Assembly: GCA_030824575.1 (NCBI GenBank)
Contig: JAVBXL010000205.1
Span: 52,350-116,349 of the forward strand
Source of the DNA: a bacterium
Lineage (GTDB): Bacteria; Pseudomonadota; Alphaproteobacteria; Sphingomonadales; Sphingomonadaceae
Length of the DNA: 64,000 bases
Direction: 5' to 3'
Part shown: piece by piece, positions 3,540 to 37,789 of the stretch
Layout of the letters: every line of letters begins with the position of its first letter
Position numbering within the stretch: the first letter of the stretch is position 1
Notes under the pieces: generated by a model
The model's input: the letters and a program-made list of their open reading frames with translations, nothing else
Database searches by the model: none
Told to the model about the DNA's origin: nothing
Program-made: the position numbers and the translations under genes

Positions 3540-5501
3540 TCAACTTAACGTCGGTCCCGATCGACCACGACCGATCTGCCAGCTGATGCCGTCGGTTCGC
3601 ATGACGCCCGCAGCCGTCCTGCCAATATTGCGTTCAAGTACGTCGCGCCATGGCACCAGCGTAAAATCCCGCGACCGCTCGACAACCGCGTAGCTGCCGC
3701 TTTCGAGATCAACACGACGCGCAATCACGCCCTCGATGCGCTCGCCCATTCGGGGCGGCTCGAACGGCTTGCCGAGCCGGTCTGCGAGCCCCTTCGCGGT
3801 GTCGTGAAGTTCGCGGTGGCGCAGCGCGCCCACCGCGCCATCGCGCAGCCGAAATTTCCCGCGCTCTTCGCTGGCGAGTCGTTGCTCGATCAGCCATTGC
3901 CGCCGAGCTGCGAGCGCTGTCCTGACCTCGCGGCCAAAACCGATGTCGCGCGGGGCATGCGCGGCGCCCTCGATTTCGCGATCGAGCCAAGTCGGGGCAT
4001 CCCTCGACGGAAGTTCGGCAAGAGGCGTCCGGGACAGCACCGAAAGCGTCACCGGTCGATCACGCTGCTGGCGTTGGGCAAAGGCTTCCGCCTGCGCTAG
4101 GTGATCGTCGGAAATCTCCCAACTTCCGTCCGCCAGCCGCTCGGGCCCGGCTCCGGCGCGCCGCATCGCCTCCAGCCGGCGCACGTGGCTCGTCGCGAAC
4201 GCCTCGCTGGCGCTGGGATCGTGCGCCAAGTGCAGGTCGACCGAATAGCGGCCGCCATTGGCGCGGGCGATGGCAGCGACCGTCCGATCCGCCTGTGTCG
4301 CCGACAGTTTGGTCGGCTCGATCCTGATCGTCGCGCCTTCGGGCGCGCTGGGCGTTCCGTCGCCACGTCCGACATCAACGTAATGGACGCGGCCATCGGT
4401 GCCATCGATCATCAGGTAATGGCGGTCGCGATGCTCGTCGGAAAATCCACGATGGATCATGCGGCCGACGATCGGTTCGGAGAGCGTCGTCGTGACCACC
4501 TGCTCGACCCCGGCGCGGTCCAGCCGGCGTGCGGTCAACTCGCGCTGCATGAGGCGGACGATGTCGCCGCGCTCACCCATCCGGCGCAGCGTGTCCTCCA
4601 GCCCCTCCGCAAGCCGATAGCGACCGCCGCCGATGTCCTCGGCCAGATCCATGGCCTTGAGTTTGCGCAAGCGCCCCGCCGCGACCGATTGCTGGAGTGG
4701 GTCGTTGTCCGCAGCTGACACTTCGCGCTCGCCGTCCATGCGGCGCAGCAATCGCCGGTCGATTGCAGTGAGGCGCTCCTGGTCGACATCGTGGCGCAGA
4801 CGCGCCTCGATTTCCTGGTCCGTGCGAGGGCCCAAGTCGAGCGTCACCAGTTCCGATGCGCGCTCGCGCAGCCCGTGTGCGATATACTCACGAGCGATGA
4901 TGAGATTGTCGCCGCGATCATCGACGCCGCGCAGGACTATATGGGTGTGCGGACGCTCGGTGTTGAAGTGATCTACCGCCACCCAGTCGAGCTTCGTGCC
5001 TAGGTCCTGCTCGACCTGTGTCATCAGCCGTCGGACATAAGGCTTGAGGTCGGGATATTCGGCACCGTCCTCGGCCGAGACGATGAAGCGGAACTGGTGG
5101 CGGTCGCCGGCCGTGCGCTTGAGGAAATCATCTCCATCCGCGCGGTCGGTTTCCGGGCCGTAGAGTTCGCCCGGTAGCCCCTCGCGCGTCACCCCGTCGC
5201 GCTGGATGTAGCGCATGTGCGCACGGGCAACCTGACCCGCCTTGCCTTGGAGACGGATCAGGCTCGCCTTGACCACCGCGCGGCGACCGCGGAATCCAGC
5301 AAGCCGGTCGCGGCTCGACAGGAGCCGGCCCATGCTCGCGCCGCGCCCGATCCGGCTGCCATCGAACCGGCGCGAGCGGACGCCGGTCCTGGTGCCGGCA
5401 AGCCGGGCGGCAGCAAGGATGCGCCCGCCATATTTGACGACCTTCTTGCCGTCCTTGCCGCGCTTGCTGCCGAGCCTGGGCTTGAAGTCGTCTTCAGACA
5501 T
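3540..5501 (-). CDS. Relaxase/mobilization protein (DUF3363, VirD2/RlxS-like)
   Basis: FIVSAEDGAEYPDLKPYVRRLMTQVEQDLGTKLDWVAVDHFNTERPHTHIVLRGVDDRGDNLIIAREYIAHGLRERA is the MOBP-type histidine motif region. Start taken at MSEDDFKPRLGSKRGK. Confidence 0.9.
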   Translation of the reverse strand: MSEDDFKPRLGSKRGKDGKKVVKYGGRILAAARLAGTRTGVRSRRFDGSRIGRGASMGRLLSSRDRLAGFRGRRAVVKASLIRLQGKAGQVARAHMRYIQRDGVTREGLPGELYGPETDRADGDDFLKRTAGDRHQFRFIVSAEDGAEYPDLKPYVRRLMTQVEQDLGTKLDWVAVDHFNTERPHTHIVLRGVDDRGDNLIIAREYIAHGLRERASELVTLDLGPRTDQEIEARLRHDVDQERLTAIDRRLLRRMDGEREVSAADNDPLQQSVAAGRLRKLKAMDLAEDIGGGRYRLAEGLEDTLRRMGERGDIVRLMQRELTARRLDRAGVEQVVTTTLSEPIVGRMIHRGFSDEHRDRHYLMIDGTDGRVHYVDVGRGDGTPSAPEGATIRIEPTKLSATQADRTVAAIARANGGRYSVDLHLAHDPSASEAFATSHVRRLEAMRRAGAGPERLADGSWEISDDHLAQAEAFAQRQQRDRPVTLSVLSRTPLAELPSRDAPTWLDREIEGAAHAPRDIGFGREVRTALAARRQWLIEQRLASEERGKFRLRDGAVGALRHRELHDTAKGLADRLGKPFEPPRMGERIEGVIARRVDLESGSYAVVERSRDFTLVPWRDVLERNIGRTAAGVMRTDGISWQIGRGRSGPTLS

Positions 5502-5752
5502 CGGGGAAACCCAGAGTCTCGCGATTTTTGGCCAAAAATGGCAGATTTCCGCCAATCCTGGCGCCGCTGTCTCGCGGCGCGAAGCGCCAGTCTCCACAAA
5601 AAAGGATGTGCAGACAAAGACTTATGCAGGGTCGCGAGACACTGCCTTTATCTTGTTTCCCCTCTCTTCCTTCCTTCCCACCATCAAGGCTCAAAAAAGG
5701 GGGAGAGACGAGCGCCTTCCGACGCCGCCTCTCCCCGCGAAATCCATCTACG

Positions 5753-6124
5753 TCAGTGCGCATGGAGCATTGCATCCCGCGCCCTGACCAGCGATCTGAA
5801 CTGCCGGCATCCCATCATCCCGTGAGCCTGGCCATCGCCATCCACGAGCATGGTGGCGCAGAACCACTTGCCATCGAGCCGCCCGCAAATCGCGATCCGA
5901 TCGAGTTCGAAATCCTCGTCGTCAGCGCTTTCGTAGGTGCCGATCCAGCGTTCCTCGACCCTCGCATCCCAGCGAAAATCTGCTTCCTCAGCCTCCAGAA
6001 ACCGGTGTGCCAGTGCCTCTCCGGCGCCGCGTCCGAACTCCAGTTCCAAGCCTGAGATCAGCGCCGCCATCACGCAGTCCACCACATTGGCCGACGCCGT
6101 TTCGATGCTCTGATACATGCTCAT
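5753..6124 (-). CDS. Hypothetical protein
   Basis: ORF MSMYQSIETASANVVDCVMAALISGLELEFG..., located between the relaxase and transglycosylase genes. Confidence 0.55.
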   Translation of the reverse strand: MSMYQSIETASANVVDCVMAALISGLELEFGRGAGEALAHRFLEAEEADFRWDARVEERWIGTYESADDEDFELDRIAICGRLDGKWFCATMLVDGDGQAHGMMGCRQFRSLVRARDAMLHAH

Positions 6125-6178
6125 TGTGACCTCCAACGCTTTGTTCTCACCATCGAGAACGGCGTTTGAGGGACGGGT

Positions 6179-6294
6179 GGCGGAGCGGCTGTCAGGGCCG
6201 CGGAGTGCAGCAGAGCGCCGCGAAGCGGACGTGGGGGGAACCGATTTTCGAAGAAAATTGGGGGGCACCCGCGGGCCTTGATAGCCGCTCCGCC
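6179..6294. repeat. Long imperfect inverted repeat (21-nt arms, 2 mismatches) in ICE intergenic region
   Basis: GGCGGAGCGGCTGTCAGGGCC (6179-6199) against GGCCTTGATAGCCGCTCCGCC (6274-6294). Confidence 0.7.
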
Positions 6295-6356
6295 GCCCGT
6301 CATGCTGGGTCTATCGAGACGAGCTTCCTCCCTCTCGATCACGCGCGACATCTCGC

Positions 6357-6968
6357 TCAATCCCGCTGCGACAGGGCGACGAACAGGGAGGGAACCGGCG
6401 TCGTGGCCGGCCGATCCGCATCACCTGTGGGTACATTCCGACGCACGACGAAGATCGACTGAGGCGAGGCTGGCCCGGCCACGACCATCGCCGGCACAGA
6501 TGCCGATGGCGCGACGCTGGCGAGATAGCCGATCGTCTCCGACGGCAGCGCACGACGCCCAGCAAGATGCTCGGCATAGCGGCCGGGGCCGGCATTATAA
6601 GCCGCGAACAGGCCCGGATAGCCGAAGCGGTCGTACATCAGCCGGAGGTAGAACGTGCCCGCCAGGATGTTGTCACGCGGGTCGTCGGGATCACTGCCAA
6701 GCCCGAGCCTAGCGCGCATCTCCTCCCATGTGCGAGGCATCAACTGCATCAGTCCGATCGCGCCAGCCGACGAACGGATCGGGCGGCCACCCAGATGCGT
6801 CCGGCCCCGGCTCTCGGCGCGCATGACGCGTTCGATCCACGCGACCGGCACGCCGAAGCGGCTCGACGCTTCGACAATGTACGACCGCCAGCTATCGACG
6901 GATTGGGCGTGCGCCGGGCTGGCGATGGCCAGCGAAGCGATGGTGAGCCATGATTTCAGCGCGCCCAT
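6357..6968 (-). CDS. Lytic transglycosylase (SLT domain)
   Basis: MRAESRGRTHLGGRPIRSSAGAIGLMQLMPRTWEEM...NILAGTFYLRLMYDRFGYPGLFAAYNAGPGRYAEHL; signal peptide MGALKSWLTIASLAIASPAHAQ. Confidence 0.9.
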   Translation of the reverse strand: MGALKSWLTIASLAIASPAHAQSVDSWRSYIVEASSRFGVPVAWIERVMRAESRGRTHLGGRPIRSSAGAIGLMQLMPRTWEEMRARLGLGSDPDDPRDNILAGTFYLRLMYDRFGYPGLFAAYNAGPGRYAEHLAGRRALPSETIGYLASVAPSASVPAMVVAGPASPQSIFVVRRNVPTGDADRPATTPVPSLFVALSQRD

Positions 6969-7537
6969 AGCAGCCGCGCCTTTCCGATGACGTCGGTGCC
7001 CTCGGTCACGCCGAAATAGCGCCCGTCGAACGATGCCGCTGCGTCCATCAGAAGGAAGAGCTGGCGCCCGCGCAGCCGCACGCAGCCCGACCACATCGGC
7101 ATCGCACGGCCTGCGCCATCGGTGACGCGGCGCTCGGCGATCCAGCGTCCGTTGACGAAGATTTCCTGCCCCAACGCGCAGACCTCATCGCCCGCCGCAG
7201 CTGCGACGCGCTTCACCAACGGCACGTTCATCGGCAGGTAGCGGCGCGTCGCGGCGAGGCGGCGGAAGGTTTCGGGAACGCGTGCGATCACCATGTCGCC
7301 GGGTTCGGCGAGACCTTTCGGCGCGACCCAATAGAGACCGATCGGCGCGCTTGCCGAGGCATTCCACACGAGGCGCGGAGTCGGCGGGAAGGCTGCAGAG
7401 GTGAGCAGGACCGCCACGCCCGTCGCGATGATCGCAATGCGCCGTCCGAGCTTTTTTCGGCGCAGTTTCGCCGCGCGAAGTGCATCGCCCCAGGCGAGCA
7501 GCGGCGCGTCCGCGCCGCGTGCGTTGCGCCCGGTCAC
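6956..7537 (-). CDS. traF: TraF-type conjugative transfer signal peptidase (S26)
   Basis: SASAPIGLYWVAPKGLAEPGDMVIARVP...VPLVKRVAAAAGDEVC...; GTG start overlaps the upstream stop. Confidence 0.85.
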   Translation of the reverse strand: MTGRNARGADAPLLAWGDALRAAKLRRKKLGRRIAIIATGVAVLLTSAAFPPTPRLVWNASASAPIGLYWVAPKGLAEPGDMVIARVPETFRRLAATRRYLPMNVPLVKRVAAAAGDEVCALGQEIFVNGRWIAERRVTDGAGRAMPMWSGCVRLRGRQLFLLMDAAASFDGRYFGVTEGTDVIGKARLLWAR

Positions 7538-7764
7538 GAGCGCGAATCCCGCGCGCCGCTGTCGCGGCTCCAGGCGTCGAGGTCGTCGATATGGTACTGG
7601 ACCATGCGGGTGTGGCGGCGAAATGCCGGCCCCTTGCCATCGCGCCGCAGCCGCTTGAGCGACTTGGGCGAGATCTTGAGATAGGCTGCGGCCTGGTCCG
7701 TGGTGAGGAAGGGCGAGCCGCGTTTCGCGCGGCCCGCACGGTCGATGTCGCTGTCGTCGTGCAT
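7534..7764 (-). CDS. Helix-turn-helix protein, candidate RdfS-like excisionase
   Basis: PFLTTDQAAAYLKISPKSLKRLRRDGKGPAFRRHTRMVQYHIDDLDAW is an excisionase-type HTH. It lies directly upstream of traF. Confidence 0.7.
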   Translation of the reverse strand: MHDDSDIDRAGRAKRGSPFLTTDQAAAYLKISPKSLKRLRRDGKGPAFRRHTRMVQYHIDDLDAWSRDSGARDSRS

Positions 7765-7885
7765 TGTGCTCTGGGTCCGAATCTGGCGGCGGCGAAAGTG
7801 CCGGCGCGTCCCCGAACCTCGCCAACCCGACCCGGCGGCGGGAGTGTCGAACCGATTGCCGGTTTCGACACCCCGGCACGCGGGT

Positions 7886-12787: not shown

Positions 12788-13081
12788 TCATGGCCGCCGA
12801 TGGGAAGCTGCGCGTGCCTGCTCGCCGAATGCGGCGATTGCACTGCGCAGTCCGGCGCCGGTGATCCACCGCGCCCGCGCGAGATGACTGTCCCAGCAGG
12901 TCCGGGCGCGCGTTGCATCCGTCACCGGGTCGATGCCGAGGATATCGAGTGCACCGTCCTGCCAGGCGATGCCGTCTTTCTCGGCGTCTAGCAGCTCGGC
13001 ATAGGTGAGCAGATGCCGCCGGTCATAGTCCAAGACAATTTCGCCAGTTGGCGCGAGGGTATCGAGAGGATCTGACGACAT
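12788..13081 (-). CDS. Small DUF2285-like protein, candidate QseM-type antiactivator
   Basis: YAELLDAEKDGIAWQDGALDILGIDPVTDATRARTCWDSHLARARWITGAGLRSAIA aligns by eye with the DUF2285 region at 13424-13933 (H-x3-R-x-x-x-I). Confidence 0.6.
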   Translation of the reverse strand: MSSDPLDTLAPTGEIVLDYDRRHLLTYAELLDAEKDGIAWQDGALDILGIDPVTDATRARTCWDSHLARARWITGAGLRSAIAAFGEQARAASHRRP

Positions 13082-13126
13082 TGGCCCTCGGCGTGCGTGA
13101 TGACCGACCAACGGCCACACGCGTTA

Positions 13127-13143
13127 TACATCAAGTTGGTGTA
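13127..13143. promoter_or_regulatory. Candidate operator 1: TACATCAA-G-TTGGTGTA
   Basis: 8+1+8 dyad with one mismatch in the divergent intergenic region. Confidence 0.65.
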
Positions 13144-13166
13144 AGAAACAGCTGAAGTCACGGTCC

Positions 13167-13183
13167 CACATCAATTTGATGTG
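13167..13183. promoter_or_regulatory. Candidate operator 2: CACATCAA-T-TTGATGTG
   Basis: Perfect 8+1+8 palindrome; core shared with operator 1; centres 40 bp apart. Confidence 0.75.
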
Positions 13184-13190
13184 AGGGACT

Positions 13191-13427
13191 GTGGCGCGAG
13201 GCATCCACGATAGTCGTTATCGCTGGGTGATCGAGCAATTGATCGAGGCCCGCAAGCGACAGGCACTGACGCAGCAGGCTGTGGCGGCGAAGCTCGGCAA
13301 GCCGCAGCAGTATGTCTCTCGCTACGAGACTGGCGAGCGCCGGCTCGACATCTTCGAGTTCATGGATGTCGCGGCCGCATTAGCGATCGACGCGCTCGCG
13401 TTGGTGGGCAACGCGCCAAAATCCTAG
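13191..13427 (+). CDS. XRE-family transcriptional regulator, candidate QseC-like
   Basis: EARKRQALTQQAVAAKLGKPQQYVSRYETGERRLDIFEFMDVAAAL; divergent from the DUF2285-like small gene. Confidence 0.85.
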   Translation: MARGIHDSRYRWVIEQLIEARKRQALTQQAVAAKLGKPQQYVSRYETGERRLDIFEFMDVAAALAIDALALVGNAPKS

Positions 13428-14150
13428 AATCGCTCCGCCAATACGCCGCGCGGACCTGCCCGGACCAAGGCGGCGGCCAGCGGGATCATCCGCCGCACGC
13501 GCGATTTCAGGTGCTCGCCATCTCCAGGCCAATCCCCACGGTAGATGCCAAGGCCGATCGCACGTTGGCTGGCGCCTGCGGCGATCGCGTCGCCGACGCG
13601 GAGCGCTTCCACCAGTCTGCCGAACCGCGTTCCTAAATCGGTTGGCGGCTCCCGACCTGACAGAAAGGCATCGAGGCGGCGGACCGACTCGAGCTGGGGC
13701 TCGAGGTTGCGACCAAAATCGATCAACGCCGAGATCCGGCGCGGCCCGTCATCGAGGGCGCCATCAAGACCGTCCAGCTGCAAGGTTTGCCGTGACAGGT
13801 GCAGGAGGACATGGCGCCGATCGCCGGTGCGCGCCGCGCGATGCCCTATTCGTGCGAGATCGAGCGCCGGACCCGATCGCGCCGGGACCACCGTCAGCAG
13901 GCGCGGGTTCGCGGCCGCCGTCCAGATCGGCACGGCGTGGGCGCAGTCGAGCGAGGGATCAACCGGGAAAGTGAAGCCCCCACACAGCAGCGAAATGCGC
14001 AGCCACGTCGTTGCCGCGCACGGTGCTGAAATCCGAGCGGTAGGCGGGATCGCGCCGCAGTAGTTCCCAGGCGAGCGCCAGCCGCCCGCCGGCGAGCACG
14101 GCGGCGTAGGCCGCCGTTTCTCGCCAGTCGGGAAGCCCGGACATCGTCAT
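13424..14150 (-). CDS. Split DUF6499 + DUF2285 gene, candidate FseA-type excision activator expressed by +1 frameshift
   Basis: ORF1 14150-13959 (MTMSGLPDWRETAAYAAVLAGGRLALAWELLRRDPAYRSDF...HFAAVWGLHFPG*) and ORF2 ending at 13424 (VDPSLDCAHAVPIWTAAANPR...GASQRAIGLGIYRGDWPGDGEHLKSRVRRMIPLAAALVRAG). They join with a +1 shift at TTT-CCC (13965-13970). Confidence 0.75.
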
Positions 14151-15007
14151 CAGTCCTGCCGATCCGCGAGGAAGGCGGCGGCCTGCGCCTCCTGGTCGGC
14201 TCGCAGCGCGTCGATCGCGCCGAGATACTCGGGGACCGATTCTCCAAGCAGGATTGACGGGCATCGTCCTTCCACATTGCCGAGATTGGGCCGGTGCTGC
14301 GCATAGCCGACCAGCGCCGCCAATTCGGGCGAGAAATGCCGTGCTACCGCCGGCGGATAAACCAGCCATTGCAGTTCGAAGGGTTTCAGCCAGCCGAGGC
14401 AATAGCTGACGATCACACCACGGCGCGGCGCGCCCGATATGTTGCCGCCACCGCCATGCAGGGTGGAGCCGAGAAACAACAGCGCATCGCCGGGCGCAAG
14501 CTTGGGGACGACCGCATCCTCCTCGGGCATTTCGCCGACATCCGGGTCGACATGGCTGCCGGCCCACAGCCGCGTGCCGCCATTCTCCTGGGTGAATGGA
14601 TCGATCGGCCACATCACGTTGACGAGATATTCCATGCTGCCCTTGGGACCGGCCCACATATCCTGATCCCGATGGGGCAGCTGCGCCGGTGCGCCGGGAC
14701 GGATCTCGACGGCCTGCGTCAGGTTGAGCGCGATCCGCTCGCACCAAGGCAGCAGCATGCGTTCAACGATCGTCAGCACCGCAGGGTGGCGGACCAGCGC
14801 CTCGGCCTGGGGCGAACGGCGAAGCAACGCGCCGAAGCGCCGGGTGCGGTGGCCATAAAAGACGCCCTGGCACATCGGCGTCAGCACGAAGGCAGGAGCA
14901 AGGTCGGCGGCCAGCACACCGATCACGGTGGGGGCGAGTGCCCCGCGCAGCACGCACATCCCATCTCGCGAGAGATCGCCGGCAGCGATGTCGATACCCA
15001 CGGTCAT
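14150..15007 (-). CDS. Phytanoyl-CoA dioxygenase (PhyH) family protein
   Basis: AQLPHRDQDMWAGPKGSMEYLVNVMWPIDPFTQENGGTRLWAGSHVDP...LAPGDALLFLGSTLHGGGGNISGAPRRGVIVSYCLGWLKP; ATGA overlaps at both ends. Confidence 0.9.
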   Translation of the reverse strand: MTVGIDIAAGDLSRDGMCVLRGALAPTVIGVLAADLAPAFVLTPMCQGVFYGHRTRRFGALLRRSPQAEALVRHPAVLTIVERMLLPWCERIALNLTQAVEIRPGAPAQLPHRDQDMWAGPKGSMEYLVNVMWPIDPFTQENGGTRLWAGSHVDPDVGEMPEEDAVVPKLAPGDALLFLGSTLHGGGGNISGAPRRGVIVSYCLGWLKPFELQWLVYPPAVARHFSPELAALVGYAQHRPNLGNVEGRCPSILLGESVPEYLGAIDALRADQEAQAAAFLADRQD

Positions 15008-15606
15008 GCCGCCAGCTCCAGCGCGCCGACATAGGTGCCGGTCCAAGCCAGCCGTTCGCAAATGTCGGGCGTGACCTCGACGCGGAACGCGCCGATCGGA
15101 CCGCCGGCGATGCGGACGGCGGGGCCGAGCGGCTCGGCGCGCCAACCCATGGCCAGCACCTCGCGCCGGAAACCCTCGGGTATGACGCCGGTGATGTGCT
15201 CGAGCCCGCGCGCCAACGCGAAGTCGGCCATCGCCGAGATCAGCGCGCTTCGCAGTTCCCTCCTGCGCGCGGCACCGTGGCGGCTGGGCAGGCAGAGCCG
15301 CGTGCTCTCCCATGTCGTCGCTCCAACCGGAACACCGGCGACGCAGAGGTGGGGAAATATCTCGCCCAGCAGGTGTGGCCGCCAGCTCGGCAGCATGCGC
15401 AGTGACGCCTCGTGCCGTCCGCTTTCGTCGATCGCGACGATATAGATGGCGTCGACGGTGTCGAACTGGTCGATCTCGAAGCGGCCGTCGACGACCGGCA
15501 CGTCCCAGTCGAAGAAGTCCACGAACTGCGCCTTGCGGTCCGCGAACATGGTTTCGAGCGCCGTTTGGTGCGCGCTCTTGGGGTAGTTCTCGATGGTAAG
15601 GATCAT
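15004..15606 (-). CDS. luxI: Acyl-homoserine-lactone synthase (LuxI family)
   Basis: FFDWDVPVVDGRFEIDQFDTVDAIYIVAIDESGRHEASLRMLPSWRPHLLGEIFPHLC...WESTRLCL. Confidence 0.93.
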   Translation of the reverse strand: MILTIENYPKSAHQTALETMFADRKAQFVDFFDWDVPVVDGRFEIDQFDTVDAIYIVAIDESGRHEASLRMLPSWRPHLLGEIFPHLCVAGVPVGATTWESTRLCLPSRHGAARRRELRSALISAMADFALARGLEHITGVIPEGFRREVLAMGWRAEPLGPAVRIAGGPIGAFRVEVTPDICERLAWTGTYVGALELAA

Positions 15607-15662
15607 GTGGTGCTCCCGTGGCTTGATGCGCCACGAGAGGAAGCAGCTTTGGATCGTCAGCT

Positions 15663-16454
15663 TTAGCGCCCGGAATCCACGGTCCTTGACAGCCGCAATT
15701 CGTCCGTCGCGATCTCGCCGGCAAGGATCGCGGCAGCCAGCAATTCCGTGCGGTCGCTCGCCCCGAACAGGTGACGCGCATCACGCATGTAGCTCTCGAC
15801 GGTGCGAACTGTCAGGCCAAGGCGATGGGCGACAAGCTTGTCCTTCAGGCCCTGACCGGCGAGCAGGACGCAGTCGCGATGGCGCGGCTCGAGCCTCGGC
15901 AGCGGACCGAGTTGCGCCGGGCCGGCGAAGCGTCGGGCCTGCTGGAAGGCGAAGGTGCCGAACGTCTGTGCGGGTCCGAGAAGCATTTCGGCGCTACGGA
16001 CACTTTTCAGGCCGGCGAAGGTGCAGGATCCGAAACAGGCGCCGAGCCTGGCACAGGGGACCGTGATCCCTTCGTTCAGTCCCTCGCGGCGACCAAGTTC
16101 AAGGGCAAGCCGGTCATGGCCATCCAGCTCGATGATGGCGGGCAGGTCCGACCACAGGAACGCGGCCTCGGCGAACAGGCAGCCACGCATGACCGGATCG
16201 CGGCGATAGCGGCCCTCGGAAACAATGCGGCGGGTGGCTCCTTCCGCATAGTCGCGCAGATCGACGGTGCCAGGCTTCGGCGCACGCAGATCCTCGTGCG
16301 TCAGGATCGCGAAGTAACGGCATCCCAGATCGTCGGCGAAGGCGCGCGTCACCGCCCGAAGCTGGGCGCGATCCTCGGTGTCGCGGATCGCGCGCACGAT
16401 GTCGTCCAGCAAATTGAACGCGCACTCGTTCCATAGCCGAGCTCTTCCAGCCAT
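15663..16454 (-). CDS. luxR: LuxR-family quorum-sensing regulator (autoinducer-binding + HTH)
   Basis: C-terminal LEPRHRDCVLLAGQGLKDKLVAHRLGLTVRTVESYMRDARHLFGASDRTELLAAAI; AGGAGG precedes ATG at 16454. Confidence 0.9.
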   Translation of the reverse strand: MAGRARLWNECAFNLLDDIVRAIRDTEDRAQLRAVTRAFADDLGCRYFAILTHEDLRAPKPGTVDLRDYAEGATRRIVSEGRYRRDPVMRGCLFAEAAFLWSDLPAIIELDGHDRLALELGRREGLNEGITVPCARLGACFGSCTFAGLKSVRSAEMLLGPAQTFGTFAFQQARRFAGPAQLGPLPRLEPRHRDCVLLAGQGLKDKLVAHRLGLTVRTVESYMRDARHLFGASDRTELLAAAILAGEIATDELRLSRTVDSGR

Positions 16455-16538
16455 GCGCAGCCCTCCTGCCGCGGCGTTGCCGCTAGCCCGGGTCCCCCTT
16501 CGCCGGTCGGTTGAACATCCTGCCCCGTTCGCGACCAT

Positions 16539-16783: not shown

Positions 16784-17356
16784 ATGATCGACGATGACGA
16801 ACTCAATGCCTGGTTTGTGCGGGAGGTTCTTCCTCTCGAGCGGGCGTTGACGTCCTACATCCGTCGCAACTGGAGGGTGCCCGAAGACGTGCTGGAACTG
16901 CGGCAGGACATATATGAGCATTCGCTGATCGGCGCGCGGCGTGCGCTGCCGCTCAATGCGCGCGCCTATGTCTTCACGGTCGCCCGCAATCACCTGATCA
17001 ACAATGCCAAGCGCGCCCGGATCGTCCCGATCGACACGATGGCCGATCTCGATGCGATGCACCGTGACATCGACATGTTCGAGGCCGAGCGGGCGCTTTC
17101 CGCGCGGGACGAGTTGCGCCACGCGAAGGAAGGAATCGATAAACTGCCGCCCAAGTGCCGTGAAATCATCCTGCTGCAGAAGGTCGACGGGATGACCGAC
17201 CGCGAAGCGGCGGCATCCCTGGGCGTGTCGGTCGAGACGGTCCGGCGCCAGATCAAGCTCGGCATGAAGGCGCTGTTCGACCATATGGCAGGCGGCTCGG
17301 GGAGGATCGTGCGCAAGAGCTATCGGCGGAGCGCGGACCATGAGGTGCTGCCATGA
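16784..17356 (+). CDS. FecI-like ECF RNA polymerase sigma factor
   Basis: ARAYVFTVARNHLINNAKRAR...IDKLPPKCREIILLQKVDGMTDREAAASLGVSVETVRRQIKLGMKAL. Confidence 0.92.
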   Translation: MIDDDELNAWFVREVLPLERALTSYIRRNWRVPEDVLELRQDIYEHSLIGARRALPLNARAYVFTVARNHLINNAKRARIVPIDTMADLDAMHRDIDMFEAERALSARDELRHAKEGIDKLPPKCREIILLQKVDGMTDREAAASLGVSVETVRRQIKLGMKALFDHMAGGSGRIVRKSYRRSADHEVLP

Positions 17357-18327
17357 GGCGACAGGAAGCGATCGAGGACCAGGCGCTCGACTGGCTGATC
17401 CGCCGCAATGCGCCGGACTGGACCCAGGAGGAGCAGGTCGATCTCGATGCTTGGCTTGACGAGGCCATGGCACACAAGGCAGCGTTCTGGCGCGCGGACC
17501 ATCTCTGGCAACAGGCGGATCGTATCCGCTCGCTCGGGATCGAGCGCGAGGATCGGGCCGACGATCACGAGCCGCGTCGCAAATGGTGGCCGGCCGCGAT
17601 CGCCGCCAGCCTGATCGCTGCGGTCGGCATCGGCGGATTAGCGGTCGCGCCACGATTTTCGGATCAGCCCGCGCCGCAGGTGCAACAGGCCCGCTTCGAC
17701 ACGCCTATCGGCGGGCGTCGCGTGGTACCGCTGGTTGATGGGAGCAAGGTCGAACTGAACACGCGGACGGTGCTGCGGACGGCTGTCGGCCAGAGGAAGC
17801 GCGACGTCTGGCTGGACTCCGGCGAAGCTTTCTTCGACGTCGCCCATCGTGATGGCGAGCCGTTCGTGGTCCACGCCGGCCGGCAAACGATCACTGTTCT
17901 GGGCACGAAATTCTCGGTGCGCCGGGACAAGGATCGCGTCACGGTCAACGTGCTGGAAGGGCGTGTGCGGGTCGAAGACGGCGAAGGCACTATGGGGCAT
18001 GCCGCGATAATCACCGCAGGCGACACCGCGATCTCACACGGAGCGTCCACGCTGATTGCGGCCAAGTCCGAGGAACGCGTCGAGAGTGCGCTCGCCTGGC
18101 GGGACGGCATGCTGAGCTTCGATCAGGCACCGCTCACCAAAGTTGTGGCCGAATTCAACCGCTACAATCGCGTGCAGCTAAGCGTTACTGATACGGCGAC
18201 CGGCCGGATCCCGATCGGCGGCTCATTCCAGGCTTCCAGCGTGGACTCGTTCACCCGCTTGTTGCATGATGCATACGGGCTCAAGGTCGAACGCAGCGAA
18301 ACCACAATTAAAATCTCCAGGCCGTAG
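17353..18327 (+). CDS. FecR-domain anti-sigma/transducer protein
   Basis: ARFDTPIGGRRVVPLVDGSKVELNTRTVLRTAVGQRKRDVWLDSGEAFFDVAHRDGEPFVVHAG; DUF4880-like N-terminus ALDWLIRRNAPDWTQEEQVDLDAWL. Confidence 0.93.
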   Translation: MRRQEAIEDQALDWLIRRNAPDWTQEEQVDLDAWLDEAMAHKAAFWRADHLWQQADRIRSLGIEREDRADDHEPRRKWWPAAIAASLIAAVGIGGLAVAPRFSDQPAPQVQQARFDTPIGGRRVVPLVDGSKVELNTRTVLRTAVGQRKRDVWLDSGEAFFDVAHRDGEPFVVHAGRQTITVLGTKFSVRRDKDRVTVNVLEGRVRVEDGEGTMGHAAIITAGDTAISHGASTLIAAKSEERVESALAWRDGMLSFDQAPLTKVVAEFNRYNRVQLSVTDTATGRIPIGGSFQASSVDSFTRLLHDAYGLKVERSETTIKISRP

Positions 18328-18458
18328 TGATCCCAAAAGCTATAAAGGCTTTTTCGCCGATATCTGCGGCAGATAGTCTTCCTAGGTGATAGGGCCTCTT
18401 TATCTGGACCCTCATAGCGCGTTTGCAAAACTGCATGTCGCACCCGTCTGCAAAGTCC

Positions 18459-20594
18459 TCAATTCGCAGTTAAGGGCATTTTTGTCCTCATCGGCTTCCA
18501 GTGCTCATATTGGCGAATATCGACCGGGTCTGTGTCGTTCCGACCGTTGAACCAGAAATCGAACCATTGCAGGTTTCGATTATAAATTGTGTATCGGTGC
18601 TCCGGTTGTCTCTTAATGTGATCTTCGTCTGGAAATATATACATGGCCGATGGGCGATTATATGCCTTTAATACTCCATAACTTTCTAAGGCCATCAAAT
18701 ATTCATTGTCAGAAATCTGCATCAATATCGGTATATTGATTTTTTCAATGTTACTTTCGATCGATACATTAGCCCAAAACTTGGACTGATCCTTGTCTAG
18801 AGACGGGTAGCCCATGTCTAGGAGTTGCTTTGCCCAAGCCGAACCGCCGTAAATTTGAGTTGATTTCGGCTCTTGAAAACCCGTTGAAATTGACGCAGCC
18901 GCAAATAATCTGGGGGAATTCACCAACGCGAATTGCACCGTCGATACGCCATCACTCAGGCCGGTGATGCCTATGCGATTTGCGTCGATGTTAGCCCGAG
19001 TTGTAGCCAACTCGATGCCTTTTACCAAGGCAGACTGAACACTGCGTCGATCATTCCAATCATTTTGGTTCGAGACGCGGGCATCGAGTGCCGTCCGCAC
19101 CGTTCCATCTTTAACCGTCGTATAATAGTCAGCAGGCCTTTGCAGGCTGAGAACGGCAAAGCCTTTCTCAGCAAATGGGAATATGGGAAATTCATCTCCC
19201 ACACCACCACGGAGAAAGCCTCTGGTGAGGTACTGAACGACGATCAGCGGTATTTTGCCCGTGCGAGGCTGATCGCGGGGCAGAACTAGATCCCCGAAGG
19301 ATTCTATACCGACGTCATTGGTCCAGCGCAGGCGCTCGACGCTTCCTTTCCTCAACTCGCCGAAGGATGGGTTGGGATCGAATAGCGTCGTCAAGGCGCC
19401 GGTGTCTGTGTTGATGCGAACGATGCGCCTCGGATGGCTGGACGCTTCGTGTAGGCAGATGAGCGTGGCGGATTCCAACTGGCAACCTGTTACCAGATCA
19501 TTCGTCTTCAAGATGATGGCTGGGGCAGACCGCGTGTCCCAACTGTAGAGTTGCAGTTCGCTTTTCCCCCATCCGGCCCGCCGAAGAAAAAGGATCCTCT
19601 GTCCGTTCGCGGTCCACCACATATTGAGGATGCCGTCTGTACAGGCCGGATCGTCGCACCTTCGCCTTCGTCCATCAGCATATTGCAACCACAGGTCACT
19701 GGGCGATAAGATGCTAGCGGCGTCTCGCTGCACGATCTGAGCGGTGACGCTTTGGCTTGTCGCCGTGGAGCGGACGAGTTTTCTTGGTGATGCGTCTACG
19801 GGCACCTTCATATCTGCGGGCAGTTCCTCACTGCTCGCTGGACGAATGTTGGTTCCACTCGCCGTGGAAGAAAAGAATTCGATCGGAACGGGACCAGGAA
19901 TGGATGGGCGGGCCTCTCGATTGGGTACGAAGCTGTCATCGTATAAAAAGCCAACTCGGCCTCGCCGGTCGATCTCAGTTTTATGCCGTGCGGCTTCAGG
20001 TTCATTCCCAAACAGCAGCCTACCGCCCGGCGTCCATGCAACTTGGCGAACCGCTGTCTCGGAAGTTGTTGTGAACAGCACGGATGCATTCTCAACTGAC
20101 ACAACGCGGGCCTGGGGGGTGCCTTGGATCGATACCAAATAGGCGAGATATCGGCTGTCTGGTGACCATCGCGGACTGTTTATGATTGGCGAGCCGTTGA
20201 TCATCCGAAAGCCACGAATAGTCGGCGCGCCGATGATCAGTCCATTGCTCATATCGACAATCTGGGCCGGGGCTTGGCTTTCGGCATCGATTGTGACGAG
20301 CGCTTGGCAATAATCGTTCATCACCGGATCTGCCCGGCTTATAACGAAGGCCAGACGTGTGCCGTCAGGTGATAGCGCGAGAGGGCTTTCAGGCAGATCG
20401 GTCCCGAAGTTCGGGCCGATGTCGCGTAGGCCGATCAGATCGTTCGTGGTGACGCCGCGCTTATCCGCATGCCCATTTGCACCTTCATCAATGAGGTTCC
20501 GGCAAACTGGCGGGGTTTCAGTGGCGGCTGCCTCTGCATGAGAAGCAGCACCGATTATGCCGGCGCATGTCGCCAGCAGGACAACAGACTTCAT
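18459..20594 (-). CDS. AtxE2-family lasso peptide isopeptidase (S9 prolyl oligopeptidase-like)
   Basis: beta-propeller plus alpha/beta-hydrolase; catalytic Ser region IGITGLSDGVSTVQFALV; His region FPDEDHIKRQPEHRYTIYNRNLQWFDFW; paired with TonB receptor/FecR/FecI. Confidence 0.8.
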   Translation of the reverse strand: MKSVVLLATCAGIIGAASHAEAAATETPPVCRNLIDEGANGHADKRGVTTNDLIGLRDIGPNFGTDLPESPLALSPDGTRLAFVISRADPVMNDYCQALVTIDAESQAPAQIVDMSNGLIIGAPTIRGFRMINGSPIINSPRWSPDSRYLAYLVSIQGTPQARVVSVENASVLFTTTSETAVRQVAWTPGGRLLFGNEPEAARHKTEIDRRGRVGFLYDDSFVPNREARPSIPGPVPIEFFSSTASGTNIRPASSEELPADMKVPVDASPRKLVRSTATSQSVTAQIVQRDAASILSPSDLWLQYADGRRRRCDDPACTDGILNMWWTANGQRILFLRRAGWGKSELQLYSWDTRSAPAIILKTNDLVTGCQLESATLICLHEASSHPRRIVRINTDTGALTTLFDPNPSFGELRKGSVERLRWTNDVGIESFGDLVLPRDQPRTGKIPLIVVQYLTRGFLRGGVGDEFPIFPFAEKGFAVLSLQRPADYYTTVKDGTVRTALDARVSNQNDWNDRRSVQSALVKGIELATTRANIDANRIGITGLSDGVSTVQFALVNSPRLFAAASISTGFQEPKSTQIYGGSAWAKQLLDMGYPSLDKDQSKFWANVSIESNIEKINIPILMQISDNEYLMALESYGVLKAYNRPSAMYIFPDEDHIKRQPEHRYTIYNRNLQWFDFWFNGRNDTDPVDIRQYEHWKPMRTKMPLTAN

Positions 20595-20600
20595 GTCCGT

Positions 20601-23198
20601 TCACCAGGATTTCGAGATCGAAAAGCTGATGTAACGACCCCATGGTGAGTAATTGGCCGAATCGTATGGCGACTGGCTGACTTGGGTTGTCGCGATTACG
20701 GATGGTTTGTTGTTGAAGACATTTTGCGCGGAAAGGGAGAAGTCCATGCCGCGAAAAATCGGCGTTTCACTGTCTATTTTCAGCCTGGCGGTCAGATCGA
20801 ACGTGGTCATCGAACCGACGTCATATGTCACCGTCGCGCGTCGATCTTTCACTCCCCCGATATAATTCACGATGGGGGTAAGCTTGAAAGGCCCTTGCTC
20901 CCATGTGAAGCCGGCGACGCCCCGCAAATGCGGTGGGAAGAATAGGCTACCCGCCAGTTCGGTTTCCGGCTGTAAAGCACTCAGGCGCTGTTGACTTTCG
21001 ATATAGCTCGCATTCGCCCAAAAAGAGATATCACCCATGGCACCCAGATCGGCGTGATGGCTCAGATTGACATCGACGCCATCTATTTTCTGACGGGCCG
21101 CATTGGCATATTGACTGTAGATGATTGCTCCTACTTTCGCGGGATCCCAAGGGCCGCTAGAGTTGTTGAAGAGCAAAGCTCCGTCGAGTGCCGCATTTAT
21201 CTCATCTGCGGTCGGGTTCACGCTCACTAGATCAGCATAGATTGGATTGCTGAGCGCTTGGGTGATGTAGGTGACTGGCGTTACGATCCGATCCCGATAA
21301 CGGATCGAATAGTAGGTCACCTCGATCTTCGAATTGGGTGAGAATGCAGGCTTAAGTATCACGGACGCCGTCCAGTTCGTGGATCGCTCCGGTTTCAAAT
21401 CAGGATTTCCGCCACCGCTGTACAAGCCTACAGTTCCTGCGGGGAAGCCAATTCCGCCAAAGACTCCAATGTTGTAGACGCTTGCGCCTCGTACGCTATG
21501 CAACTGGTAAAGCGTGGGCGCTTTGAAGGATTTGCCCCATGAGAGTTTGAAGGTCACGCCATAGCCAGTCGCCAGAACGGCACCAAGCTTAGGTGTCGCC
21601 ACATCTCCTATACCCGGATAATCTTCATATCGAACCGCGCCGTTCAGAATTAGGGACTGGACGAGCGCACCGTCCTCTTCCGACCGGACAATAGGAGCAT
21701 TAATCTCCAAGAAACCGTAACGGTTGTCCTGGCTTGCTTCAACGCTCTGACCATTATCTACAAGCCGATTATATGAATGCAGATAATTTTTTCGATAACC
21801 CCCGCCAAGCGCGGCCTTAACTGGCCCAGCCCCGAGATCGAGCAGCGTGCCTTTGGCGGTGCCTTCAATACTAAATGCCCTGTTGCAATAGCAAAGTTCG
21901 GTTCTCGACAAAACGCTGCTGGTATAGCTATCGGACTTTGAGAGAGTTCGATCTTCAGCGTAAACGCCGGAAAATGCAATATTCCAAGTGTCACTGGCTT
22001 GTATATCGATGTTTGGGGCCACGCTGACTGTTCTGGTATTAGTTAACCGGCGGAGGCCTTGTATCCGGTAATCCCCCGCTGCTGAAGACGCAAAAGCTCG
22101 ATCCGTCTTGCGCTCGCCGTAAAGGCCATCGATGCTGAACTCTACGCCTGGCATGATGTTTTGGTGGCCGCTTAGCAACACGTTGTGGCGATCAAAGCCC
22201 GGATAAAGGGTCAGACCTGGCGAACGAGTCGCTGCATAATCGCGTTGACTTGCTAGAATGGGCGTCGAGTGCGCGAAATCGTAGGCAAGGATGAAGCCGC
22301 CGGAATTCCATGTCGTTCCGCCGGTGACGCTATAATTCTGCTGTGCGTTCCCTCCATCGGTGGAGGCTCCCCAATATGCGCGCGCTGTTAGGCCGCGATA
22401 GTCCTTACGCAGGATGATGTTCGCGACACCCGCTATGGCGTCGGAACCATAAAGGGCGGACGCTCCATCGGTTACGATTTCCATCCGGTCGACAGCAGCA
22501 AGAGGAATAGCCGAAATATCGATTGACTGAACCGCCGTGTTGAAAGCCAGCCTGTGGCCATTGAGCAGGGTGACGGTCGCATCGGACCCCAGACCACGAA
22601 GATTGATTGAGGTGGCTCCTCCCAGATTGCTGCCGACGCTTTCTGGGACGTTCTGACCGATTCCCGGATTTTGGCCCGCACCTGAAGCAACAGGCAACGC
22701 CCTGACAGCTTCGGCGAGACTGTTGTGACCATTATCAAGCATTCGCTCCCGGCTGATGATTTGCGTAGGGGAAGGGGAAACAACCCCTGCGATCAGCGAA
22801 CCTGTAACAACGATTTCAGCGCTCTCGTCTTTGGACGATGCACCTCCAGATGCCGATTTTCGTAATGATGCAATGCTCTCATCGGCGTTTTGGCCGTTTC
22901 CCGCTTTCACAATTGCGACGAGATTACCATCGACTTGGGTTGTGAACCCACTGCCCGCCAATAGATTGGCGAGCGCAGCATCGGCTGAAAGTGGCCCGCG
23001 TGCGCCCGGTGAGCGCGCTGAGCGTACTTGATCGGCGCGATAGACCACTTGCCGTCCAGATTGTTGGACATAGGCATCAAGCGCGACCTTTAGCGAACCC
23101 GCAGGTATCCTATATTCGCGGGTCTGCGCTGCCGCAGGTGCCGCAAGTGCCACGATACAGGTGCTGGTTGCAAATACCGCTGCGAGTGTCCGAATCAT
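20601..23198 (-). CDS. TonB-dependent receptor with N-terminal STN signalling domain
   Basis: STN region YRIPAGSLKVALDAYVQQSGRQVVYRADQVRS...GSGFTTQVDGNLVAIV; plug GGATSINLRGLGSDATVTLLNGHRLA; C-terminus GRYISFSISKSW. Confidence 0.93.
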   Translation of the reverse strand: MIRTLAAVFATSTCIVALAAPAAAQTREYRIPAGSLKVALDAYVQQSGRQVVYRADQVRSARSPGARGPLSADAALANLLAGSGFTTQVDGNLVAIVKAGNGQNADESIASLRKSASGGASSKDESAEIVVTGSLIAGVVSPSPTQIISRERMLDNGHNSLAEAVRALPVASGAGQNPGIGQNVPESVGSNLGGATSINLRGLGSDATVTLLNGHRLAFNTAVQSIDISAIPLAAVDRMEIVTDGASALYGSDAIAGVANIILRKDYRGLTARAYWGASTDGGNAQQNYSVTGGTTWNSGGFILAYDFAHSTPILASQRDYAATRSPGLTLYPGFDRHNVLLSGHQNIMPGVEFSIDGLYGERKTDRAFASSAAGDYRIQGLRRLTNTRTVSVAPNIDIQASDTWNIAFSGVYAEDRTLSKSDSYTSSVLSRTELCYCNRAFSIEGTAKGTLLDLGAGPVKAALGGGYRKNYLHSYNRLVDNGQSVEASQDNRYGFLEINAPIVRSEEDGALVQSLILNGAVRYEDYPGIGDVATPKLGAVLATGYGVTFKLSWGKSFKAPTLYQLHSVRGASVYNIGVFGGIGFPAGTVGLYSGGGNPDLKPERSTNWTASVILKPAFSPNSKIEVTYYSIRYRDRIVTPVTYITQALSNPIYADLVSVNPTADEINAALDGALLFNNSSGPWDPAKVGAIIYSQYANAARQKIDGVDVNLSHHADLGAMGDISFWANASYIESQQRLSALQPETELAGSLFFPPHLRGVAGFTWEQGPFKLTPIVNYIGGVKDRRATVTYDVGSMTTFDLTARLKIDSETPIFRGMDFSLSAQNVFNNKPSVIATTQVSQSPYDSANYSPWGRYISFSISKSW

Positions 23199-23243
23199 GA
23201 TGCCCCCAATCTCTAGGCAGATTATCCGCCCACGGGAAAGTGA

Positions 23244-23271
23244 GACAGTCGAGCCCGAGCTTTGGGTAACG
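23244..23271 (-). promoter_or_regulatory. Putative ECF-type promoter of the TonB receptor gene: CGTTACC-N17-TGTC
   Basis: Minus strand CGTTACCCAAAGCTCGGGCTCGACTGTC, about 46 nt before the ATG. Confidence 0.45.
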
Positions 23272-23482
23272 ACAAACCGCACCCAGCGAATTCTCTGATC
23301 TATCGAACTTGAAACGCTCCGTATTTCGGGCGCCACAACTGCCGTTCAGGGGGCGCCACTAGGCCGGTGTCCCCAACAAGGCAGGCTGGGTCCCCAGCGG
23401 GTATCTGCCGCCAATGACGAACCTCTGCGAATTCTCTGCAAGCCCTCGGACACTAATGTCGGCACGCGGGCGAAAGGCTCGC

Positions 23483-36298: not shown

Positions 36299-37525
36299 TC
36301 AGGCGCGCCGCGCCGCCGGAAAGGCTGGCCGTAGGATCTTCCCACCGCCGCGCAGCTGGTCGAGATAGTCCGACCAGCGCTGCATCATGACGACGCGCTC
36401 GTCCCAATATTCGCCGCGAGCATAGGCTCGCCGGACCTGGTTGGTGTCGACATGGGCGAGCTGGCGCTCGATCGCGTCGGGGTTCCATTCGCCCATCTCG
36501 TTGAGCAGCGTCGCGGCCATCGCCCGGAAGCCGTGCGCGGTCATCTGGTCGGTCGTGTAGCCGAGCTTGCGCAGGCCCTGGTTGACGGCATTCTCCGACA
36601 TCGCCTTGCGCGGCTTGCCGAGGCACGGGAACAGGTATTTCCACCAGTGCGTGTGCTCGTGAAGCTCCTTGAGCATCGCGATCACCTGCCGTGACAGCGG
36701 CACCCGGTGCGGCCGTCGCATCTTCATGCGCTCCGCAGGGATAAACCAGATCGCCTCGTCGAAATCGATATCGGTCCATTCGGCCTGCCTCAGCTCGCCG
36801 GGCCGAAGCAGCACATGGGGGGAGAGCCGCATTGCCATGACGGTGACCTTGTGGCCGCTGTAGCCGTCAATGGCCCGGAGCAAAGCGCCGACCTCGGACG
36901 GCCGCGTGATGGCCGCGAAATGCTTGACCTTCGGCACGGCGATAGCACCGCGAAGGTCGGCGGCAACATCCTTGTCGCACCGAACCGTCGCCACGCCATA
37001 GCGGAACACGCGGCTCAGGACGCTGCGCATGCGCCGTGCGCTCTCGTATGCGCCGGTCGCCTCGACCTTGCGAAGGACGGCGAGCGCCTCATGCGGTGTG
37101 ATCTGCGCGATCGGGATCGTGCCGATCAATGGATAGGCCTTGGCGAGAAGCCAGCGGATCTTGTCGACGGTCACCGGCGCGAGACCGTCCCGCTCGCATT
37201 TGACGAGCCATTCCTCGGCGACCGCCTCGAAGGTGTTGGCAGCAGCGTATTTGGCGGCGATCCGGGCGCGCTTTTTCTCCAGCGCCGGATCGATCCCCTC
37301 GGCAATCTTCTTCTTGGCCTCGTCGCGCCGCACACGCGCCTCCGCGAGGCTTACCGTTGGCCATCCACCGAGATGAAGCTTCTTCTGTTTGTCCAGAAAA
37401 CGGTAGTTGAAGCGCCACAGCTTCGAGCCGTTGGGCTGGATGACGAGATAGAGATTCTGAGAATCGGTAAGGTTCCAGGCCTTCGCTCTCGGCTTGGCGG
37501 CATTGATCTGGATGTAGGTCAGCAT
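36299..37525 (-). CDS. int: Tyrosine recombinase/site-specific integrase (P4-type)
   Basis: MLTYIQINAAKPRAKAWNLTDSQNLYLVIQPNGSKLWRFNYRFLDKQKKLHLGGWPTVSLAEAR...HVLLRPGELRQAEWTDID...TAHGFRAMAATLLNE; adjacent to tRNA-Leu. Confidence 0.95.
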   Translation of the reverse strand: MLTYIQINAAKPRAKAWNLTDSQNLYLVIQPNGSKLWRFNYRFLDKQKKLHLGGWPTVSLAEARVRRDEAKKKIAEGIDPALEKKRARIAAKYAAANTFEAVAEEWLVKCERDGLAPVTVDKIRWLLAKAYPLIGTIPIAQITPHEALAVLRKVEATGAYESARRMRSVLSRVFRYGVATVRCDKDVAADLRGAIAVPKVKHFAAITRPSEVGALLRAIDGYSGHKVTVMAMRLSPHVLLRPGELRQAEWTDIDFDEAIWFIPAERMKMRRPHRVPLSRQVIAMLKELHEHTHWWKYLFPCLGKPRKAMSENAVNQGLRKLGYTTDQMTAHGFRAMAATLLNEMGEWNPDAIERQLAHVDTNQVRRAYARGEYWDERVVMMQRWSDYLDQLRGGGKILRPAFPAARRA

Positions 37526-37558
37526 GGTCGTTTTCCCAGCAAGGCCGGGTCGATCCGA

Positions 37559-37601
37559 GGGCACCAAAAAGAGCAGCATTTTGTGGTCGCTGCTGGTGCC
37601 C
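37559..37601. repeat. Inverted repeat GGGCACCA...TGGTGCCC between int and tRNA-Leu
   Basis: GGGCACCA at 37559-37566 and TGGTGCCC at 37594-37601; the octamer equals part of the tRNA 3' end. Confidence 0.6.
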
Positions 37602-37702: not shown

Positions 37703-37789
37703 TGGTGCCCAGAAGAGGACTCGAACCTCCACGACCTTGCGATCGCCAGCACCTGAAGCTGGTGCGTCTACCAATTCCGCCATCTGGGC
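37703..37789 (-). tRNA. tRNA-Leu(CAG), ICE integration target
   Basis: Minus strand GCCCAGATGGCGGAATTGGTAGACGCACCAGCTTCAGGTGCTGG...GGTTCGAGTCCTCTTCTGGGCACCA; anticodon CAG; encoded CCA. Confidence 0.95.

Follow-up and report, generated by a model that had tools for sequence, protein, structure and literature searches.

Two adjacent open reading frames (ORFs) on the minus strand of a 64 kb stretch of sphingomonad DNA (64,000 nucleotides, hereafter called the window) encode a DUF6499 and a DUF2285 domain in different frames, and raise the question whether they represent two genes, one damaged gene or one gene joined by recoding. A first-pass annotation had proposed the last, with tRNA-Phe slipping +1 at TTT-CCC to give an FseA-like activator. 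The DUF6499 ORF runs from ATG 14150, which overlaps the stop codon of phyH (TGATG), to TGA 13961–13959, and meets the DUF2285 ORF where the minus strand reads TGG GGG CTT CAC TTT CCC GGT TGA (13982–13959). If C 13967 is skipped after TTT 13970–13968, reading continues FPVDPSLDCAHAVPIW... as far as TAG 13424; both the ORF end and the continuation were confirmed in the sequence. The predicted junction peptide of the joined protein is GLHFPVDPSLDC (...GLHF-PVDPSLDC..., the hyphen marking the junction). Both halves carry intact domains, as had been stated: on the joined frame, PF20109 (formerly DUF6499) and PF10074 (formerly DUF2285, now RovC_DNA-bd) score above their Pfam cut-offs (Table 1), and AWELLRRD at residues 27–34 corresponds to the AWEFLRRN-like helix expected of an FseA DUF6499 domain. 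The motif TGGGGNYTNNNNTTTCSY occurs once in the 64 kb, at this site, compared with 0.02 occurrences expected from shuffles. From the comparisons described below, we consider it highly probable that both ORFs form one gene, fseA, which would be expressed via +1 programmed ribosomal frameshifting in an FseA-type circuit as proposed.

Table 1. Coordinates of fseA, its recoding site and associated genes in the window.
Feature	Position	Strand	Basis
fseA first half (DUF6499 / PF20109), through slip Phe codon	13968..14150	-	ORF from ATG 14150; PF20109 residues 8–62, 49.3 bits (cut-off 23.8); dN/dS 0.15–0.39 against relatives (imprecise, see text)
Recoding site TGGGGG CTT CAC TTT/C CC	13965..13982	-	Sequence, homologue comparison, identical in L152
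Internal Shine-Dalgarno-like TGGGGG	13982–13977	-	Part of recoding site
Slip codon TTT; skipped C	13970–13968; 13967	-	Parts of recoding site
TGA ending unshifted product, two codons past TTT	13959..13961	-	Sequence
fseA second half (DUF2285 / PF10074, DNA-binding), +1 frame	13424..13966	-	PF10074 31.9 bits (cut-off 26.4); dN/dS 0.26–0.48 against relatives (imprecise, see text); joined-family profile against RovC 6XZ5, E 1.8e-17
phyH, phytanoyl-CoA dioxygenase family	14150..15007	-	PF05721 81.7 bits; stays beside luxI in plasmids and genomes
luxI-type acyl-homoserine-lactone synthase	15004..15606	-	PF00765 78.2 bits
luxR-type regulator, autoinducer-binding domain	15663..16538	-	PF03472 60.3 bits; GerE 19.6 bits, below cut-off 23.5
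XRE-type regulator, qseC-like by position	13191..13427	+	HTH_3 46.4 bits; same place in Hydrogenophaga plasmid L035
qseM-like antiactivator gene, lone DUF2285-like domain	12788..13081	-	PDB 7UQT QseM, E 5.8e-10, 42.8 bits
Two 18-nt repeats ACATCAA(G/T)TTG(G/A)TGT, candidate QseC operators	13128..13185		Between qseC and qseM; function inferred from position
rdfS-like HTH_17 gene, first of rdfS-traF-SLT-rlxS	7534..7764	-	HTH_17 45.9 bits
Inverted repeat GTGTCG-N16-CGACAC, candidate FseA box	7844..7871		Upstream of rdfS; sole match in window, 0.03 expected
traF (S26 peptidase), SLT transglycosylase, DUF3363 relaxase (rlxS-like)	3540..7534	-	Domain searches
Tyrosine integrase of element	36299..37579	-	Pfam; adjoins tRNA-Leu(CAG)
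tRNA-Leu(CAG)	37703–37789		ARAGORN

Homologues were gathered from the family, class and phylum of the window with a DUF6499 profile only, blind to the slip motif, and their DUF2285 halves were located by means of a profile built on continuous homologues, likewise blind to the slip site. Among 125 DUF6499 loci, 94 have the DUF2285 half in the +1 frame, 24 in the same frame and two in the −1 frame, and in five it was not found; the +1 frame thus accounts for 94 of the 120 homologues with an identifiable second half. TTT occupies the aligned slip site in 91 of 93 scored +1 loci, compared with 198 of 591 Phe codons (33%) elsewhere in the same genes (Fisher p 8e-39, kinship ignored). The glycine of the WGL sequence is encoded by GGG in 67 of the 93 split genes, compared with 192 of 1246 (15%) elsewhere (Fisher p 3e-32, kinship again ignored), and this codon creates an internal Shine-Dalgarno sequence. 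Nearly all continuous homologues have lost TTT. A tree of 111 joined proteins requires nine changes between the split and the continuous state, and in seven independent pairs on this tree TTT accompanies the split in six to seven and never shows the opposite pattern (median p 0.016); of these tests, only the last allows for relatedness. Alignment of split and continuous genes defines the site as TGGGGn-YTn-nnn-TTT-C. A search of the genome contigs with the DUF2285 half gave 598 pattern matches, none of which was confirmed.

The comparison also bears on which codon slips. CCC-N is a +1-prone Pro context, and a shift of tRNA-Pro from CCC to CCG would yield the same protein in the window as a shift on UUU, so the choice of UUU comes from the comparison and not from the window sequence alone. 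The slip hexamers are TTTCGC (37), TTTCCC (35), TTTCCT (10), TTTCGT (3) and rarities. In about 40 of the 93 split sites, CGC or CGT replaces CCC, and tRNA-Arg could not re-pair with GCN, whereas TTT is constant. As TTT is followed by either a Pro or an Arg codon, re-pairing there cannot be the common step, while a move of tRNA-Phe from UUU to UUC can be. With CGC/CGT sites about as common as CCC/CCT, slippage on the Pro codon was rejected; we regard it as extremely improbable in the window as well. The slip by tRNA-Phe suggested initially is therefore supported.

A more trivial reading is that one extra base, real or erroneous, breaks a normal continuous gene. Continuous homologues do exist (24 of 120), G-runs are error-prone, and the genome is a draft with an estimated contamination of 8.9%. 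A search of the genus with the LuxI of the window returned a locus 96% identical (G855, L152) and another 83% identical (G861, L153). In L152, an independent assembly from a second species, the recoding site is identical base for base and fseA differs at one of 727 bases, an agreement that rules out a sequencing error private to one assembly. The FseA halves of L153 share only some 60% identity with those of the window, and the site reads TGG GGG CTG CAC TTT CGC GAT TGA. Of 17 scored loci surrounding related luxI genes in the genus, 16 share the position of the split and one, L167, is continuous. Finally, purifying selection acts on both halves, as judged from dN/dS values of 0.15 (first half) and 0.26 (second half) between the window and L153, and of 0.15–0.39 and 0.26–0.48, respectively, against relatives, values which are imprecise because dS is near or above 1 with most of them. 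Together with the conservation of TTT and GGG across split homologues, these data strongly contradict a pseudogene or an error, to which we give next to no weight, and they agree with the earlier preference for regulated recoding.

Two other fseA genes of the same genome are also split (G000 C114 and C174; L015 and L082), so the assembly probably holds several related elements. On C114, a qseM-like gene is also present, upstream of fseA. The similarity between the window and L152 is not uniform: there is one difference within 12788–14562, compared with 164 within 14563–16538. The abrupt change at 14562/14563 suggests recombination inside the quorum-sensing operon.

The two halves might instead be translated independently, as two proteins acting together or in opposition without any recoding. 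The first half closes with a normal stop, a GTG is available at residue 12 of the +1 frame, and the DUF6499 part of the R7A protein alone binds QseM in two-hybrid assays (PMC10359603). However, conservation in the +1 frame sets in directly at the slip codon: all 87 of 87 homologues have a Trp within residues 11–18, and 83 of the 87 have a Pro at residue 3 or 4, while the first 10 codons of this frame are devoid of a start codon in 75 of 91. In most homologues this conservation precedes any start codon, which speaks against translation of the second half on its own. Moreover, the silent choice between TTT and TTC would make no difference if the proteins were separate, but TTT is close to fixation, and the joined DUF6499-DUF2285 architecture is identical in the continuous homologues. 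Independent translation thus appears very unlikely, though marginally less so than the two explanations dealt with above, and we retain the single, frameshifted fseA gene.

Pairing with the anti-Shine-Dalgarno sequence of 16S rRNA has its minimum 11–14 nt upstream of UUU, with a mean of about −8 kcal/mol compared with −1.0 over all offsets. Stimulatory RNA structure downstream of the site is unsupported, as none stands out over 87 loci (mean z −0.19; window −0.89). A stop codon at the slip was rejected as a general requirement: in 91 homologues the median distance from TTT to the 0-frame stop is 13 codons. The +1 frameshift of prfB (RF2) likewise has an internal Shine-Dalgarno-like GGGGG ahead of the slippery codon. 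In prfB, 3 nt separate the two, an in-frame stop occupies the A site and the release factor regulates its own synthesis. The fseA site differs in its spacing of 6 nt, in having no obligatory in-frame A-site stop and in lacking release-factor autoregulation.

These features are compatible with the following course of events. Translation would begin at ATG 14150, probably coupled to that of phyH. On reaching UGG GGG CUU CAC UUU C, the ribosome would probably pause as UGGGGG pairs with the anti-Shine-Dalgarno sequence; such a pause, which we infer to promote the slip, is in line with the suggestion in PMC10359603 that UGGGGG may stall translation. The P-site tRNA-Phe (anticodon GAA) would then shift from UUU to UUC, where it pairs better. 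By analogy with R7A, slippage in cells would be of low efficiency: a fraction of ribosomes would enter the DUF2285 frame and most would terminate two codons later, releasing a DUF6499 fragment.

Continuous alleles of the WGC type occur in L074, L077, L167 and L028, the slip site being still intact in the last. The first three make up a sister group that shares the luxR-luxI-phyH neighbourhood but has a continuous fseA and a decayed TTT site, which indicates that the split is dispensable. L028 (G008) has a continuous fseA with TTTCCC retained and a G-run one G shorter, in an assembly that is 86% complete; either the fusion is recent or the homopolymer was misread in sequencing. Loss of one G from the GGGGG tract would fuse the frames (WGL to WGC), and the tract might act both as a stimulator of frameshifting and as a mutation hot spot, an idea that we hold to be unlikely. 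If true, loss of a G would let elements switch between frameshift-limited and unrestrained FseA, and tight control of transfer could give way to loose control by a natural route.

The fseA gene belongs to an integrative and conjugative element (ICE), as had been recognized: an integrase, a DUF3363 relaxase and a type IV secretion system are present, and the integrase lies beside a tRNA gene. A second copy of the tRNA-Leu end (att repeat) was sought on the contig and none was found; part of the element may lie on a different contig. Genes for LuxR and LuxI lie upstream of fseA in the same orientation. The position 'just downstream of luxI' given in the first-pass annotation did not hold, as phyH intervenes and fseA is two genes downstream. 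Also within the element are a QseM relative, an XRE-type regulator gene and the rdfS operon. The XRE gene is convergent with fseA, its stop overlapping the end of fseA, and the qseM-like gene is divergent from the XRE gene. The qseM-like product matches the QseM structure 7UQT over 72 residues, its DUF2285 domain being below Pfam detection, and the rdfS-like gene shares 57% identity with the HTH gene that occupies the equivalent setting of a Hydrogenophaga plasmid (L035). In this plasmid, luxR-luxI-phyH-fseA-qseC-qseM-rdfS-S26-SLT form one run, and fseA is split.

By analogy with R7A, LuxR and LuxI would turn on transcription of luxI-phyH-fseA. In the manner of FseA, the joined protein would probably activate the rdfS-traF-SLT-rlxS operon and hence excision and transfer. 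QseM, as in R7A, would bind the DUF6499 half and block FseA, and the adjacent XRE repressor would control QseM. The inverted repeat GTGTCG-N16-CGACAC, a candidate FseA box, sits 80 bp upstream of rdfS. Across 169 loci, every occurrence of the repeat lies upstream of rdfS; the loci concerned are the window, L035/L141, L153 and L167, and the repeat is confined to the group of the window. Its centre and spacing (16 or 19) vary among these loci. The published FseA box consists of hexamers 15–16 bp apart in an inverted repeat upstream of the −35 element, so the spacing of 19 in L035 and L167 leaves the GTGTCG repeat as a candidate only. The upstream regions of 63 rdfS genes were not generally enriched in 6-nt inverted repeats spaced 16 nt apart.

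The closest known system is FseA (msi172-msi171) of ICEMlSymR7A from Mesorhizobium, which likewise has a DUF6499-DUF2285 organization and a +1 break after WGL encoded by TGGGGG, accompanied by quorum-sensing genes, a QseM-like gene and an rdfS-traF-SLT-rlxS operon (PMC10359603, PMC11963761). The comparison of the sites follows the wording of PMC10359603, a conserved +1 programmed frameshift with WGL encoded by UGGGGG. The operon order of ICEMlSymR7A (rdfS, traF, msi107, rlxS; PMC11963761) is the same in the window. Unlike ICEMlSymR7A, the element is of a sphingomonad type with phyH between luxI and fseA, has ArdC, ParB-like and DUF736 genes between qseM and rdfS, and has its integrase next to tRNA-Leu(CAG). 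Jowsey 2023 described a conserved +1 site across alpha-, beta- and gammaproteobacteria, with about 61% of 4709 FseA homologues split (PMC10359603). Those activators have the same domains and type of break as the genes in our sample, with no difference in kind. The fseA gene of the window is a well-supported further case of the published mechanism, judged from its sequence, and the mechanism itself is not new. Searched as a single sequence against PDB, FseA had no relative; a profile of the joined family was needed to match RovC of Yersinia (6XZ5), which we use as a structural relative only; RovC regulates type VI secretion and not conjugation (Pfam PF10074 description).

The locus would not alter the view that specialists hold of FseA. 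It probably offers a clean and complete instance of translational recoding in the control of gene transfer outside rhizobia, in which a single element holds quorum-sensing genes, antiactivator and excision factor. Aligning split with continuous genes provides a usable site definition and reveals a gap in annotation, which records the DUF2285 half of fseA but not the first half in the Hydrogenophaga and Variovorax plasmids.

The occurrence of phyH beside luxI in sphingomonads is already known (PMC3704786). We found phyH following luxI also in numerous conjugative plasmids of sphingomonads, of which at least one (L036) has no fseA nearby, and in the Hydrogenophaga and Variovorax plasmids. The dioxygenase may modify the signal molecule. 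Beside the circuit, at 16784–23336, the element carries cargo genes for an ECF sigma factor, FecR, an S9 peptidase and a TonB-dependent receptor; the last two have a third-position codon GC much below that of their neighbours.
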